From Acidobacteriota bacterium (GTDB taxonomy: Bacteria; Acidobacteriota; Holophagae; Thermotomaculales; Thermotomaculaceae), in contig JAADGL010000041.1 in NCBI GenBank assembly GCA_013152385.1, forward strand, positions 1-62,374: 62,374 nt of DNA. Reading direction: 5' to 3'. Below the pieces are notes generated by a model. The model was not told where the DNA came from. It saw nothing but the letters and a program-made list of their open reading frames with translations, and did no database searches. The position numbers were made by a program, and so were the translations under genes. Shown piece after piece: positions 4,546-62,374 of the stretch (positions are counted from its first letter, which is position 1; every line of letters begins with the position of its first letter).

Positions 4546-6768
4546 TCACTCCAGGGTGGCGGCAGTTTCCTTTTTTACATACATCTCAATTTCATCGCCT
4601 TCCCGGATATCTTTCAGGTTTTCAATGCCGATTCCGCATTCAAATCCCTGTTTTACCTCCGATGCGTCGTCTTTGAAACGTTTCAAAGAACTGAGGCGGC
4701 CGTCATGAATCATGACATTATCCCGGTACACCCGGACCAGCCCCTTTCGCGTAATTACGCCGTCCGTCACATAACAACCGGCAATAAAGCCGATTTTCGG
4801 CACTTTAAAAACCTGCCGGACTTCCGCGTGTCCGATGACCTCTTCGGTAATATCCGGTTCCAGCATTCCCAGCATGGCGGCACGAATTTCATTGGTCAAT
4901 TCATAAATAATGTTGTGAATCCGGATTTCAACACCTTCCTGTTCCGCCAAACGGACAGTTTTCTTGTCCGCTCTGACATGGAATCCGAGAACAATTGCAT
5001 TGGATGCGGATGCCAGAAGTACATCGTTTTCGCTGATTGCTCCGACACCTTTGTGAATCACGTTCAATTTCACTTTCCGGGTTGTCAGTTTATTCAGCAT
5101 TGCCTCAATGGTCTCCACAGAGCCCTGAACATCGCATTTGAGGATAATCGGCAGTTCTTTTACACCTTCGTCCTCCACCCTCCGGAACAGCTCATCCAGG
5201 CTCAGCTTTTTGGCAGGTTCGGATCTGTTTAACTCGTCATAACGCATCTTCTTCGCCTGCGCAATCTCACGGGCCAGAGACTCATTCGGCACCACATAAA
5301 ATTTGTCGCCCGCCATGGGAACATCGTTAAAACCCAGAATTTCAACCGGATCCGACGGAGCCGCTTCTTTCAGCTGTTTTCCGTGTTCATTGAACATTGC
5401 CCGCACTTTACCGAAAGTAACGCCGCAGGTAAAGATGTCTCCGACACGCAATGTGCCGTTTTGAACCAGCACGGTCGCCACCGGGCCTTTTCCTTTATCC
5501 ACTTTCGCTTCAATGATGGAACCTTTCGCGCTGGCGGTCGGATCTGCCCTCAAATCCAGCATTTCTGCCACAAGGGAAATGTATTCGATCAGTTCATCAA
5601 TCCCCTTCCCTGTTTTTGCGGAAACTTCAACCGCAATAATATCTCCGCCGTAATCTTCCACAACCAAATCGTGTTCCAGCAGCTGCTGTTTTACCCGATC
5701 CGGGTTTGCCTCCGGTTTATCCACCTTGTTAATCGCAACAATGATTGCAACCCCGGCAGCCTGGGAATGGTTGATTGCTTCAATGGTCTGAGGCTTCAAC
5801 CCCTCTTCAGCAGCAACCACCAGAATGACGATATCTGTCACATCCGCGCCCCGTGCCCGCATCAGGGTAAAAGCTTCATGGCCCGGCGTATCAAGAAACG
5901 TAATCCGTTTTCCGTCAGCTTCAATTTGATAAGCGCCGATATGCTGTGTAATGCCTCCGGCCTCCCGGTCGGTAATATGGCTGGAACGAATCTTGTCAAG
6001 AAGAGATGTTTTCCCGTGATCCACATGCCCCATCAGGGTAACAACAGGAATTCTCGGTTTCAGAGAATCCGGATTGTCCGGTTTTTCAAGTTCTGCCAAC
6101 GCTTCATGCTCATGCTCAATGAATTCCACAAGGTAACCGAATTCTCCGGCAATTTCCTCCACAAGTTCGGAATCCACAATCTGATTGGCGCCGGCACTGA
6201 TACCTCTTTTACGAAGCTCTAACATTACATCCTTGGTTTTGCATTCCATCCGTGACGCCAACTGTCGAACCGTCACATAGCGGGACAGGGCCAAAACGCC
6301 TTTATCTCCGGGTTCCGGCTTCTTCCCAGCTTTCTTCGCTTCTGATTTTGCCTTCTTTTTTCCCCTTTCCGTTTCAGGTTCAGATTTTTTACCGATCTCA
6401 GCCTTTGCTTTCTCAGCTTCCGATTTTTTCGGTTTCGATTTTTCACCGGTGGATTTTTTCGATTTCGGCGTTTTGTCCTTCTCCGGGGACGTTTCTTTGG
6501 GTTCCGCTTTTTTTCCGCTTTTTTTCTCTGTTCCGCCTTTCTTCTCTTTCGATGCTGACTTTTTGCCGGAAGCCGGCTGTTTTTCCGCGGAAGTTTTCTT
6601 CTTTTTCTCTTCCGCAGCCAGTTTCTTCTTTGCGGCAGACAACATGTCTTCTGTCAAAACACTCATATGGGATTTAACTTCAAATCCGTTTTCCTTAAAG
6701 AAAGAAATGAGCTCCCGGCTGGTCAGCTTCAATTCCTTTGCCAACTCATGAACCCGTTTTCCAGTCAT
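4546..6768 (-). CDS. infB: Translation initiation factor IF-2
   Basis: IF-2 is the GTPase that delivers initiator fMet-tRNA to the ribosome. The 740-residue protein has an N-terminal IF2_N segment (residues 1-50). A long Lys/Glu/Ser-rich low-complexity linker (about 45-155) and a second IF2_N-like segment (160-215) follow. The G domain has GHVDHGKT (247-254), DTPGH (293-297) and a NKVD motif, and domains II-IV complete the protein. The start codon overlaps the nusA stop (TAATG). The basic linker is variable between species and is presumably flexible. Confidence 0.97.
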
Positions 6769-41265: not shown

Positions 41266-44200
41266 ATGAAAATGACAAAAAACCTGATTCGATATTTTTT
41301 TATCATATTCTTTTTGGCAGCACCCCTCCCCGTGTTTTCACAAAACCCTGCCGCAGAATGGCGGATGGATGAATGCAAATGGACCGGAACCGCAGGCGAA
41401 GTCATAGACAATCAGGGCAACGGGTATGACGGAACCGCCATAAACGGTGCATCAACCGCCGTGGGAAAACTCTGCAACGGCGGTGTGTTTGACGGAAGCA
41501 GCAGCTATGTCAACGTCCCGAACAGCAACTTTAATTTCGGAAATCGGATGTCTGTAGCCGCATGGGTAAAATGGGACATCAACCCCGCAAGCGGGCAGAA
41601 CTACGCCAACATCATCTCCATCAACTCCACCAGCCAGACCGATACCGGCCAATTCTGGCTCCAGCACGACAACAACAATCAACACTTTCAGTTTGCAGTC
41701 ACCACCACAAATGCCCGTTACTTTGTCAACTCCACCACATCTCCGGTTCAGGGAGTCTGGTACCACGTAGTGGGCGTTTACGATCGGAATGTTCTCCGCA
41801 TCTATGTAAACGGACAACAGGAAGCGAGCCGGAACACCGGTTCCAGGGCAAACGTCACCCCATATAATTCCGCTTACCACCTGAATATCGGCAGATGGGC
41901 CTATACCGGGTTTCCCAGAGCATTCTCCGGCCAGCTTGACGAAGTAAAAGTTTACACACGGCGCTTGCGGGACAGTGATGTTTCCCGCCTTTACAACCGG
42001 GAAGACAGCGGGAAAAATTATGACAATTCAACACGAGTCTGCCCCCTTTGCGCCACGACAGCCGAATGGCGGATGGACGAATGCTTCTGGAGCGGAACGG
42101 CAGGGGAAGTAACGGACAGCAGCGGCAACGGATACGACGGAACGGCAGCCGGTACCGCCACCCCCTCAAACACAACGCCATTCCTCTGCCAGTACGGAGA
42201 CCTGACCGGCACCGGTTATATTAACCTGCCGAATCAACCGTCAATCGGAAATGCCTGGTCCCTGACAATGTGGGTCTTGTTTCCTTTGAATTCGACATCC
42301 CACAATGCCCTTTCCGGATACGGTAATTACTACTGCCTCGCATCTGTCAACAACACCGGAGACCTTGCTTACATTGACGATCATAACGGCAGTAATCTCC
42401 GGTGGGGTGTTTACGATAACAGTGGCAATTTCACGGAGAATAACTTCCCCGACTCCCTCACCGGCTGGCATCAATTGACGCTGGTCGCAGATGGGAACGG
42501 ACATACCCGGATGTACATTGACGGTAGTTACCAGAATCGGGTAACCGCTGTCACAAGCGGAGACGTGGGCTACATTGGCACATCTTCCGATGACCTGTCC
42601 GGTGAAACCATCGGTGCCGGAGTAGATGAAGTAAAACTGTTCTCCCAGGCCCTGAGCGATTCCCAGATACAGGATATCTACAACAATGAAGCCGCCGGCA
42701 ACAACTGGGACGGTTCACCGCGAAACTGTCCGTATTGCGGCCCAACGGCAAACTACCGGATGGACGAATGCCGTTGGACCGGCACAGCCGGTGAAGTGAG
42801 GGACAGTTCACCAAACGGATACAACGGCACTCCCTATAATGGAACAACAACAGCAAACGGTGGCATTTTATGCCATGCGGCCACATTCAACCGCAGCAGT
42901 ACTTCGGACTATGTTGTGCTGGATAACCGTGCCATTAACGGAGCCCAGGACTTCACTTTCATGGGATGGTTTCGCTCGCCGAAAGCAGGGAACCAGGTCT
43001 TGATTTCCGGTGCGGCTTCTTCCAATGCCAACAGCTGGCTCCTCTGGCAATCCGGTGCCGGCAGCATCCAGACATATCTGCCCGGCAGCACCATTAGCTA
43101 TTCCCTTCCCTACGCCATCAATGACGACCAATGGCACCACATCGTCTGGGAAAGAAATGGTGGTACCGAATTCCTCTACCTGGACGGCACCCTCGTTTCC
43201 TCCCACAACCAAAGCACAAGCCCCATCACAGTGGATACCGGAGGACTGATTATCGGCCAGGAACAGGATTGTGTGGGCGGATGTTTTGATTCCAGACAAA
43301 TCTTTGTCGGTGAAATTGATGAACTGCTGTTTTACGGCTATGCCCTTCCGGGCTCCAGCATCCAGAATATTTATAACAACCAGCAAAATGGCTTCAATCG
43401 GGACGGTACTTCCCGAACCTGCCCCCTTTGTGATGCCGACCTTGAGTTGCGCATGGACGAATGCATCTGGAACGGCACCACAGGAGAAGCAGTGGACAGC
43501 AGCAATCACGGTCATGACGGAACCGCCGAAGGCGGCGCGGTTACGGATGATGCCGACGCAAAACTCTGCCGGGACGGTGAGCTGATCGGCTCCAGATACC
43601 TTTCCCTGACAAATGGAATCACCCTGGGCGGTTCATGGACTGCAACCATGTGGGTTCGTTTCCCACTGGATCCGAGCGGACACAACACCGTGGGAAGTTA
43701 TGGCAATGTATACATTATCGGTTCAGTCAATGGCACCGGGGACATGGCTCTAATTTACGACAGCGGTGGCACAAACCTCCGCTGGGGCGTGTACGACAAC
43801 TCCGGTGGCATCAGCAGCACTGATTTTCCGGACAATCTCACCGGATGGCACCATCTCACCTTCGTGGGACGTTCCGGCGGCAGCACCGATTTGTTTATTG
43901 ATGGCACATATGACAGCAATGTGCCCAGACGAACCACAGGAAATGTAACCTACATCTGCACCTCCTCCGACGACCCGGCGGGACAAACCATCGGTGCAGC
44001 TGTGGATGAATACAAAATATTCAATACCGAACTGACCAATGCCCAGATTACACAGATTTACAACAACGAAGCCGCCGGAACCAACTGGGACGGCTCGGTG
44101 CGAATCTGCCCATCCTGTACCCCTGTTGCGGATTATCACCTTGATGAATGCTACTGGGACGGCACAAGCGGCCAGGTTGCGGACGCCAGCGGAAACGGCA

Positions 44201-46746
44201 ACAACGGCACAGCCCATGGAAATGCCAACACCAGCCCGGGAGGAATTGTCTGCAGATGCGCCAACTTCAACAGCGGAGGCTCAACCGGACAATATGTCAC
44301 CCTGCCGGCATCCGTTGTGGACGGACTGACGGATTTCAGCTTCAACACATGGGTAAAACCGGAAGACACCGCCACCCACACCCTGCTGTCCGGTGCCGGA
44401 AGTACCAGCGACAACGATATGCTCCTCTACGCAACGAACACCACCACATTGGAAACCTACATTGCCGGTACGTTTCAAAACAGCTACTCCCTCTCCGACC
44501 TTGCGGACGGAAACTGGCACATGATCACCTGGACCCGGAAAAACGGAACCGAAAGCATCTATGAAGACGGCGCACTGGTGGCAAGCAACAGCGTCTCCAC
44601 CGCCACACTCTCGGTGCAATCCCTGATTATCGGACAGGAGCAGGACAGCGTCGGCGGCGGATTCAATAACAACCAGGCCTTCCGCGGACTGCAGGACGAA
44701 GTCACATTCTGGAACCGGGCACTTGTCTCATCCGAAATATCCGCAATCTACAATAACGAAAACAGCGGAATGAACCTTGACGGTACCGCCCGCACCTGCC
44801 CCACATGCGTCCTCATTACATACTATGAGATTCAGCACGACGGCAGCGCCATCGTCTGCTACCCGGAACGGATTCACATCGTTGCACGGGACTCCTCCGG
44901 CGCAGTGGTCACCGGCTTCACCGGCACCATTACATTGACCACCTCCACCGGCAACGGAACCTGGTACACCGCATACAGCGGCCTCACCAACGACGACCCG
45001 CCCCAGGGTACATTTTCCGACCCCACAGCCGACGACGGACAGGCGGCATACACCTTTGTTGCCGGAGACCAGGGCGAAATCACCCTGTTTCTCCGGGACA
45101 CCCACGCCGAAACCCTGCAAATCACCGCGTCGGACGGCACCTACACTTCAGCAGGGCACAACAGCGGCGACCTTGTATTCCGCCCCAGCGGCTTTGCAAT
45201 TAAAGATACCGCCGGAGCCGACATCCCAAACCAAATCAGCGGCCATAACTTCACCGTTACCATCACAGCCATCGGAGAAGACCCCCAGAGCGGCCAATGT
45301 ACAGCACTGGATTACAGCGGAACCAAAACCATTGACGCCACGCTTTTTTATAATGACCCGTCAAGCGGAACCACCCCGCTCATACTGGATGGGAACAATG
45401 TCACATCCTCCGGAACCAGCATACAATTGAACTTCACAAACAGCACCGCAACCGTCTCCGCAGCTTACAACGACGCCGGAAAAATCTGGTTCCGGCTCAC
45501 AGACAGCGCGGAAAACATAACCGGAGACAGTGCCGTTTTTGTGGTCAAACCCTGGGCATACAGCGTCACGGCAGACGGAAACCCCGGTGCCGCGGACGCG
45601 TCCGGAAACGTATTCCGCGCTGCAGGAGACACCTTTACTCTCCGAATCAAAGCTATCTGCTGGAGCAGCGCAGACGATACGGACAACAATCTTGTCCCGG
45701 ATTCCGGAGCAGATCTTTCAGACAACGCCGTCACAACAAACTACAATAGTTCCATAACAGTTACCCACTCTCTCGCCGCACCGTCCGGCGGCGCTGCGGG
45801 AAACCTCACCGGTATTCCCGGAACCGTCTCCGGCGGAGAACTCACCGCTGCCAACACCGTCTATGACGAAGTGGGCATCATTACCGTCACCGTGGACACC
45901 ACCGATTACCTTGGTGCAGGCTCTGTCAATGGAACCAGCGGAAACATCGGTCGTTTCACGCCCAAATACATTGACATCCCGGCTTTTGTTCAAAACCCCG
46001 CCTGCACCGCAGGAGCCCACCCCTTCACCTACGCGGAAGAACCCTTTTCCATTGACACCACCCTCACCGCAAAAGCGGCGGCCGGAACCGTCACAACAAA
46101 CTACACCGGAAACTTCGCGAAACTGACCCCCGGCGATCTCACCATTGCCGTTCAATCCGGTACCGGATCCTTATCCGCCGGAACAATCTCGTTCACATTC
46201 AACAACGGAACCGCCCTGTTCACCATTCCCGGCAACCGTTACGGCTGGGGCTCCGCCCATGACCCGGAAACCGTCACCCTGAACCTCTCCGGTTCTGACA
46301 GCGACTCTGTTCCTGTCGCAACCGACGCAGGCGGAACCGCAGCCATCTCCAACGGTGTCTCCTACCGCTATGGCCGCCTGCAGGTTCTGGACAACTTTTC
46401 TCCTTCCGACCGGGACCTCACCCTGACCATTGCCGCCCAGTATTACAGCGGCGGAGACTACGTTGCCAACACAGACGACAGCTGCACCGGATACACAGAC
46501 AGCAACATCACCCTCCAGAACTGGCAGGGAAACCTGACAGCCGGCGACACCGCCGTTACCGCATACACCACCGTCACCAACGGTACCGGTTCCGTCACCT
46601 TAAGTGCCCCCGGACTAAGCAATGAAGGTTCGGTAGATGTCATTCTCAACGCCCCGGCATGGTTTGTGTTTGACGCCGGCACTGGCACCTTCGGCATCTA
46701 CCGCGGCGACGACCGCTTCATCTCCTGGCAGGAAATCCAGAAATAA
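41266..46746 (+). CDS. Giant secreted protein: five LamG-type units plus MshQ-like C-terminus
   Basis: A 1,826-residue protein with a signal peptide (about 1-25, ending PVFS). Five LamG/concanavalin-type units start near residues 31, 267, 496, 727 and 956. Each opens with a (Y/W/L)RMDEC-like motif, has a Cys near residue 40 of the unit and ends with a CPxC linker, so disulfides are likely. From about residue 1,185 to the end the sequence matches the DUF6701 region of MSHA biogenesis protein MshQ: VTTNYTGNFAKL, NTDDSCTGY and the terminal FGIYRGDDRFISWQE. MshQ lies in type IV pilus clusters of vibrios and relatives; no pilus gene is seen here. GGGGGGAG precedes the ATG. A surface or adhesive role is inferred. 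Confidence 0.88.
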   Translation: MKMTKNLIRYFFIIFFLAAPLPVFSQNPAAEWRMDECKWTGTAGEVIDNQGNGYDGTAINGASTAVGKLCNGGVFDGSSSYVNVPNSNFNFGNRMSVAAWVKWDINPASGQNYANIISINSTSQTDTGQFWLQHDNNNQHFQFAVTTTNARYFVNSTTSPVQGVWYHVVGVYDRNVLRIYVNGQQEASRNTGSRANVTPYNSAYHLNIGRWAYTGFPRAFSGQLDEVKVYTRRLRDSDVSRLYNREDSGKNYDNSTRVCPLCATTAEWRMDECFWSGTAGEVTDSSGNGYDGTAAGTATPSNTTPFLCQYGDLTGTGYINLPNQPSIGNAWSLTMWVLFPLNSTSHNALSGYGNYYCLASVNNTGDLAYIDDHNGSNLRWGVYDNSGNFTENNFPDSLTGWHQLTLVADGNGHTRMYIDGSYQNRVTAVTSGDVGYIGTSSDDLSGETIGAGVDEVKLFSQALSDSQIQDIYNNEAAGNNWDGSPRNCPYCGPTANYRMDECRWTGTAGEVRDSSPNGYNGTPYNGTTTANGGILCHAATFNRSSTSDYVVLDNRAINGAQDFTFMGWFRSPKAGNQVLISGAASSNANSWLLWQSGAGSIQTYLPGSTISYSLPYAINDDQWHHIVWERNGGTEFLYLDGTLVSSHNQSTSPITVDTGGLIIGQEQDCVGGCFDSRQIFVGEIDELLFYGYALPGSSIQNIYNNQQNGFNRDGTSRTCPLCDADLELRMDECIWNGTTGEAVDSSNHGHDGTAEGGAVTDDADAKLCRDGELIGSRYLSLTNGITLGGSWTATMWVRFPLDPSGHNTVGSYGNVYIIGSVNGTGDMALIYDSGGTNLRWGVYDNSGGISSTDFPDNLTGWHHLTFVGRSGGSTDLFIDGTYDSNVPRRTTGNVTYICTSSDDPAGQTIGAAVDEYKIFNTELTNAQITQIYNNEAAGTNWDGSVRICPSCTPVADYHLDECYWDGTSGQVADASGNGNNGTAHGNANTSPGGIVCRCANFNSGGSTGQYVTLPASVVDGLTDFSFNTWVKPEDTATHTLLSGAGSTSDNDMLLYATNTTTLETYIAGTFQNSYSLSDLADGNWHMITWTRKNGTESIYEDGALVASNSVSTATLSVQSLIIGQEQDSVGGGFNNNQAFRGLQDEVTFWNRALVSSEISAIYNNENSGMNLDGTARTCPTCVLITYYEIQHDGSAIVCYPERIHIVARDSSGAVVTGFTGTITLTTSTGNGTWYTAYSGLTNDDPPQGTFSDPTADDGQAAYTFVAGDQGEITLFLRDTHAETLQITASDGTYTSAGHNSGDLVFRPSGFAIKDTAGADIPNQISGHNFTVTITAIGEDPQSGQCTALDYSGTKTIDATLFYNDPSSGTTPLILDGNNVTSSGTSIQLNFTNSTATVSAAYNDAGKIWFRLTDSAENITGDSAVFVVKPWAYSVTADGNPGAADASGNVFRAAGDTFTLRIKAICWSSADDTDNNLVPDSGADLSDNAVTTNYNSSITVTHSLAAPSGGAAGNLTGIPGTVSGGELTAANTVYDEVGIITVTVDTTDYLGAGSVNGTSGNIGRFTPKYIDIPAFVQNPACTAGAHPFTYAEEPFSIDTTLTAKAAAGTVTTNYTGNFAKLTPGDLTIAVQSGTGSLSAGTISFTFNNGTALFTIPGNRYGWGSAHDPETVTLNLSGSDSDSVPVATDAGGTAAISNGVSYRYGRLQVLDNFSPSDRDLTLTIAAQYYSGGDYVANTDDSCTGYTDSNITLQNWQGNLTAGDTAVTAYTTVTNGTGSVTLSAPGLSNEGSVDVILNAPAWFVFDAGTGTFGIYRGDDRFISWQEIQK
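41356..44813 (+). repeat. Five tandem LamG-coding repeats in an A-B-C-B-C order
   Basis: Unit starts are about 41356, 42064, 42751, 43444 and 44131, giving lengths of 708, 687, 693, 687 and about 680 bases. Units two and four share a long common segment (NLRWGVYDNSG, TGWHQLT/TGWHHLT), and units three and five share another (LIIGQEQD, VGG, WHxI/WHMITW). The order therefore looks like one A unit followed by two copies of a B-C pair of about 1,380 bases. This suggests duplication of a two-domain block. Confidence 0.75.
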
Positions 46747-62058: not shown

Positions 62059-62146
62059 GCCGGTGTGGCGGAATTGGCAGACGCGCTGGACTCAAAATCC
62101 TGTGGGCTTTACGCCCGTCTCGGTTCGACCCCGAGCACCGGCACCA
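62059..62146 (+). tRNA. tRNA-Leu (anticodon CAA)
   Basis: The 88-base gene folds as a class II tRNA. The acceptor stem pairs GCCGGTG with CACCGGC, and the D-loop contains the AATTGGCAGAC sequence. The anticodon loop is CTCAAAA (anticodon CAA, reading UUG). The long variable arm is TGGGCTTTACGCCCG, and the T-arm contains GGTTCGACCCC. The CCA end is encoded (62144-62146). It has a promoter directly upstream and no neighbour tRNA genes. Confidence 0.97.
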
Positions 62147-62294: not shown

Positions 62295-62374
62295 GGGGGC
62301 GAAAGGGTTCGACGGGCAGAGTTGAGGCTCAGGCCGCATGCCGAGGTTGGTTTTCCTCGTAAATCAAGACCAAA
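62295..62374 (+). ncRNA. ssrA: tmRNA (ssrA), 5' part
   Basis: The sequence GGGGGCGAAAGGGTTCGACG, starting at 62295, is the conserved 5' end of transfer-messenger RNA, which forms one side of the tRNA-like acceptor stem and D-arm. Only the first 80 bases are in the window. The tag reading frame and the 3' end lie beyond the right edge. tmRNA rescues stalled ribosomes together with SmpB. Confidence 0.9.

Follow-up and report, generated by a model that had tools for sequence, protein, structure and literature searches.

The window analyzed here, a stretch of 62,374 nucleotides, is the whole of contig C31 from a genome of 2.57 Mb assembled in 69 contigs and 99% complete. An open reading frame on the plus strand (41266–46746) encodes a MshQ-like protein of 1,826 aa, the coordinates and length given by an earlier sequence-only reading being exact. 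Translation and profile searches show that it consists of a signal peptide, five LamG units and a DUF6701 domain. A ribosome-binding site, GGGGGGAG, precedes the ATG. No riboswitch was found at the gene in an Rfam search, and a promoter and terminator scan gave signals there no more than in shuffled sequence. The GC3 of the gene is 0.64 vs 0.54 ± 0.05 for the genes of the window; the protein is rich in Gly, Ala and Thr and secreted, so composition is a weak sign of foreign origin. The window also contains a tRNA gene (62059–62143) and a tmRNA gene (62295–62374) that is cut by the contig end. The nearest named relatives are the Acidobacteriota metagenome-assembled genomes (MAGs) L063 (88% identity) and L064 (80%); judging by named relatives, the host presumably belongs to the Thermotomaculaceae (class Holophagae) and lives at deep-sea vents.

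All features of the protein are encoded on the plus strand. A predicted Sec signal peptide, MKMTKNLIRYFFIIFFLAAPLPVFS (41266–41340), was read from the translation by eye. The Laminin_G_3 profile of Pfam matches the protein in five stretches (whole-protein E 4.8e-85), and all five domains score above the cut-off, with single E-values from 2.2e-13 to 2.7e-29. Each unit starts near (M/L)DEC and closes with CPxC. U1 (41353–42051, aa 30–262) is of type A and ends with CPLC. The type B units are U2 (42061–42738, aa 266–491, CPYC end) and its sister U4 (43441–44118, aa 726–951, CPSC end), both with a TSSDD motif. The type C units U3 (42748–43431, aa 495–722, CPLC end) and U5 (44128–44808, aa 955–1181, CPTC end) are pentraxin-like, with pentraxin-type Ca2+ loops GQEQDCVGGCFDSRQ (43255–43299) and GQEQDSVGGGFNNNQ (44632–44676), respectively; the loop of U3 has an extra cysteine pair. 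A conserved beta-rich segment (YxIxHDG..C.PE; 44809–45153), recognized by alignment with Neptunomonas proteins and represented by a weak model, leads to DUF6701 (45154–46737), which carries the terminal motif TFGIYRGDDRFISWQE.

The C-terminus had been assigned to the DUF6701 part of MshQ from the letters only, and the Pfam search established the assignment: DUF6701 (PF20419) covers aa 1297–1824 and profile positions 9–577 of 577, i.e. the full length, with E 4.2e-98 and a score of 330 bits against a gathering cut-off of 27. In a BLAST comparison with the operon-encoded MshQ of Pseudoalteromonas the C-termini align with E 1e-33 over 622 columns. A PDB sequence search with DUF6701 gave nothing credible, and its AlphaFold model, built from five sequences, has a pLDDT of 43. 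The PF05567 beta-propeller of PilY1 has no match in the protein by Pfam scan. The NCBIfam model of the fimbrial protein TafC (NF052521) matches the LamG part in three stretches (E 3.5e-28). Together, the signal peptide, the LamG units and DUF6701 support the secreted, surface-adhesin-like architecture that had been proposed. Literature searches found nothing relevant on TafC or on MshQ with LamG or pentraxin domains, and no paper naming DUF6701. MshQ of V. cholerae is called a putative MSHA adhesin (PMC7096442), and mshB–mshQ has been described as a structural operon (PMC4624765).

The sequence-only reading had described the units as ordered A-B-C-B-C, with U2 resembling U4, U3 resembling U5 and CPxC at each end. 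Pairwise identities agree with this: 54% for U2/U4, 46% for U3/U5 and 29–36% for the remaining pairs. Since the first two values exceed those of all other pairs, the order is real. The same reading explained it by recent growth through duplication of one two-domain block. Internal duplication stands, given the unit identities; its recency has to be abandoned, as synonymous sites are near-saturated, long near-identical DNA repeats are absent and two other species have five units. Fourfold-degenerate sites are identical at 21 of 60 positions in U2/U4 and at 21 of 47 in U3/U5, much like in distant unit pairs, and no repeat within the gene is longer than 86 nt, the copies being 67–84% alike. The same five units in the same order are present in the orthologue G003a and in the orthologue from L064; therefore the duplications predate these species. 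The L064 sequence is frameshifted at about 5337–5424, within U2, which could be an assembly error of this 80%-identical MAG.

Duplication of a single block is doubtful as well. In a tree of 40 units U2 and U4 are each other's closest relatives, as expected (support 97/94), and their clade pairs with unit 3 from the sister genus. U3 and U5, for which the same had been expected, are not exclusive sisters: U5 lies outside a clade formed by U3 and two units of the second DUF6701 protein of species G003, hereafter G003b (99/97; 40-unit tree). When units of this second protein are included, a constrained U3+U5 clade is rejected with p-AU 0.028, a modest rejection of a grouping that had been named beforehand. 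U3 and the two G003b units have a cysteine pair in the Ca2+ loop in common (QDCVGGCF), which U5 lacks and which is a derived character. Relative to orthologue divergence, the depth of the split is 4.8 for 3/5 vs 3.3 for 2/4, with a bootstrap interval of the difference of 0.22–2.78, so that the 3/5 split looks the older of the two. A rival that concerns only how the repeats arose, a single tandem duplication of the B-C block followed by unequal rates, would yield the A-B-C-B-C order and make U2/U4 and U3/U5 the best pairs inside the protein, and related proteins have three units; the rejected U3+U5 clade, the cysteines that U3 has in common with G003b and the larger normalized depth of the 3/5 split argue against it, and we rate this course somewhat below an even chance. 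The five-unit head probably arose by old internal duplications and not in one step. An old block duplication with later exchange of units between paralogues is a possible scenario.

U3 and U5 match neuronal pentraxin-1 (NPTX1) by sequence with E 1e-14 and 2e-11, respectively, and also match CRP, including the Ca2+ loop GQEQD..GG.F...Q. In the alignment with CRP, U5 also keeps the Asp-Asn pair; this pair and the loop residues are Ca2+ ligands in CRP. Only U3 and U5 have a pentraxin match that includes the ligand loop, which is absent from the aligned U1, U2 and U4. Units from Neptunomonas, Campylobacterales and the sister genus also retain this loop. A single-sequence PDB search with U2 gave no match. 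The AlphaFold model of the B-C block has a pLDDT of 59, and Foldseek aligned it with laminin LG, neurexin and clostridial receptor-binding jelly rolls at low TM-scores; such matches confirm the jelly-roll class only.

DUF6701 is constant among the homologues while the heads differ (LamG/pentraxin, PA14, H-type lectin). LamG is missing from the operon-encoded Pseudoalteromonas MshQ, whose head is an H-type lectin; the head of G003b comprises PA14 and six LamG units, and that of the sister genus, an additional N-terminal region and three LamG units. G003b itself (L058 284–8584, minus strand, genome G003) is 2,766 aa long and has pentraxin-like units; a counterpart is absent from the genome of the window. 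In a MAG of Campylobacterales, a protein of 2,431 aa combines four LamG units with PARCEL-type repeats (L067 4602–14524); four minor-pilin genes, with pilus-assembly genes after them, run divergently from its gene, and DUF6701 has no match at that locus.

No pilin or pilus-assembly gene had been seen near the mshQ-like gene, and genome-wide profile searches concur: prepilins (PF07963), assembly and retraction ATPases (PF00437) and MshL-type secretins (TIGR02519) have no match anywhere on C31. Thus the mshQ-like gene is not the last gene of an mshB-A-C-D-O-P-Q operon. The search for MSHA-type genes in the rest of the genome, suggested by the sequence-only reading, revealed tip-pilin genes that it had missed, on contig C17. 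At 65–67 kb of this contig there are four consecutive prepilin genes (L043 7178–9370, minus strand), for which the genuine MSHA operon of Pseudoalteromonas (L110) served as the reference. The second product is 33% identical to MshD (E 3e-22) and the third, 30% identical to MshO (E 3e-20), both over the full length and both reciprocal best matches among the prepilins of the same genome that were compared. The first matches MshC one way (E 2e-6); with the MshC profile it reaches 98.1% over the N-terminus vs 92% for GspH, a match specific only at the N-terminus. The fourth matches MshP weakly by BLAST and with a profile probability of 95.6%, vs 11% and 6% for two control prepilins. The gene order C-D-O-P is that of the msh clusters of Pseudoalteromonas and Neptunomonas. 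Hence the minor pilins MshC, MshD, MshO and MshP are all represented, D and O over the full length, P by profile and C by N-terminus and position.

The C17 cluster is more than 50 kb from either contig end, and about 16 kb separate the mshQ-like gene from the closer end of C31; therefore the two are not neighbors. In the complete sister genome they are found at 0.70 and 1.41 Mb, about 700 kb apart. In three species of the genus the mshQ-like gene forms a transcription unit by itself, flanked by unrelated genes, and in the sister genus it occupies a different, equally unrelated locus. The gene is thus detached from its partners, not without them.

DUF6701 is present in seven of the nine Thermotomaculaceae genomes; the other relatives in the sample all lack it. 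In an even sample of 396 genomes from the phylum it scores above the cut-off in five; MshD was found in the same five, all from one family, in a near-identical Acidobacteriota sample of 392. MshO is full-length or nearly so in eight of the nine genomes of the family, one of the matches being truncated where its contig ends, and none of 52 other genomes of the class has it at full length. The co-occurrence may reflect a single evolutionary event: since these genomes form one clade, it is consistent with a functional link and does not prove one. An independent case of the split layout is provided by another phylum. In both Neptunomonas (Gammaproteobacteria) genomes mshP is the last gene of the msh cluster, and the gene after it is convergent and unrelated; the only DUF6701 gene, which encodes LamG units, is on another contig among unrelated genes (L065/L066 with L143/L144).

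An MshL secretin at the curated cut-off was not found in the genome of the window; the best candidate (on C38) scores 142 bits vs 250 and scores higher with the PilQ and GspD models. The products of an adjacent PilB-PilC pair on C55 share 40% identity with MshE and 39% with MshG, respectively, and other pairs score alike. Among open reading frames of the loci fetched from this genome, MshI, MshJ, MshK and MshN have no BLAST matches. A candidate MshM (E 6e-18) was rejected, as it scores with the model of the XrtA-associated ATPase. A PilVWX/PilY1 tip set is encoded at 15–22 kb of C17 (L042) and a type II secretion (T2SS) locus on C44 (L041). The parallel type IV pilus and T2SS sets, with two or three PilMNO-secretin clusters and a Gsp operon, are distributed over C17 (15–22 kb, L042), C34 (L122), C38 (L121), C44 (L041) and C55 (L044, L045). 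Because no secretin reaches the curated MSHA cut-off, and because the genome has several type IV pilus/T2SS sets as well as a tip cluster of the PilY1 type, the pilus carrying the mshQ-like protein may be MSHA-like or another type IV pilus of the genome.

Taken together, these observations suggest that the mshQ-like protein is probably a Ca2+-dependent tip adhesin of the MshQ type with an exchangeable head, carried by an MSHA-like type IV pilus. It would be exported by Sec, and through its constant DUF6701 it would dock on a tip complex that consists of the C17-encoded minor pilins MshC, MshD, MshO and MshP. The N-terminal rod of five LamG units, putatively closed by disulphides, would be the exchangeable ligand-binding head, in which the pentraxin-like U3 and U5 may bind phosphate groups or glycans with Ca2+ and so mediate adhesion.

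Alternatively, the protein may have left the pilus and act by itself as a lectin, secreted or on the cell surface, with no part in pili and with DUF6701 serving as a surface anchor or an aid to T2SS export. The isolation of the gene in three species, its other unrelated locus in the sister genus, the T2SS locus on C44 and the distance of the Neptunomonas copies from pilus genes are all in line with this. However, the same genomes keep the MSHA-type minor pilins, which the other genomes in the class and phylum samples lack, DUF6701 retains its full length and C-terminal motif, and the msh cluster of Neptunomonas has no further DUF6701 protein available to it, which makes a role off the pilus unlikely. 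It is still less probable that the protein is mainly a priming factor that starts pilus assembly together with the minor pilins, the LamG head being secondary: deletion of mshQ in V. cholerae significantly lowers surface MSHA, the remaining pili still retracting (PMC7096442), and the C-terminal DUF6701 alone is common to all homologues, but every DUF6701 homologue scanned has a lectin-like head and the pentraxin Ca2+ loop is conserved from phylum to phylum, a pattern indicative of selection for binding. Priming and adhesin roles are compatible, not mutually exclusive.

For the tip adhesin, comparison of heads and loci across phyla turns the role of DUF6701 into a testable proposal, namely a constant mount with exchangeable adhesin heads on MshC/D/O/P tips, and extends MSHA-type tip genes to Acidobacteriota. 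An orphan mshQ gene need not mean an orphan protein. Tentatively, and with rather less confidence than in the tip adhesin itself, DUF6701 could serve pili in general as a tip mount, with LamG/pentraxin, H-type lectin and PA14 as unrelated lectin heads that replace one another on it; the adhesin gene lies off the msh operon in at least two phyla, so head and pilus would evolve separately, and one vent family of Acidobacteriota would have gained the set together with mshC-D-O-P.

Among known systems, the protein has in common with MshQ of the MSHA pilus (Vibrio, Shewanella, Aeromonas, Pseudoalteromonas) a signal peptide, a variable N-terminal head, a full DUF6701 and a C-terminal FGxxRGxDRxIxW-like motif, and both kinds of genome have mshC-D-O-P; the differences are that the gene studied here is outside any msh operon, that the host is an acidobacteriote and that five LamG/pentraxin units replace the H-type lectin head of the Pseudoalteromonas operon protein. 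The LamG-type MshQ of Neptunomonas (L065, L066) likewise combines LamG units bearing QEQD pentraxin loops with DUF6701, and its gene is detached from an msh cluster ending at mshP; unlike the protein described here, to which it is about 29% identical, it has three units, and its MSHA cluster includes an MshL above the curated cut-off. TafC (NF052521) has only the LamG domain in common with the protein, which scores 99 bits vs a cut-off of 410. With pentraxins (CRP, SAP, neuronal pentraxins) U3 and U5 share the jelly roll with the Ca2+ loop; here, however, the units are covalently joined in tandem in a single chain with no sign of a pentameric ring, and the cysteine of the pentraxin signature, which sits in HxCxSW, is replaced. 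PilY1 tip adhesins, which are carried by minor pilins, also have a large variable head on a constant C-terminal module and likely the same role, whereas their C-terminal beta-propeller (PF05567) is absent here and the genome has a separate PilY1 at 17–21 kb of C17.
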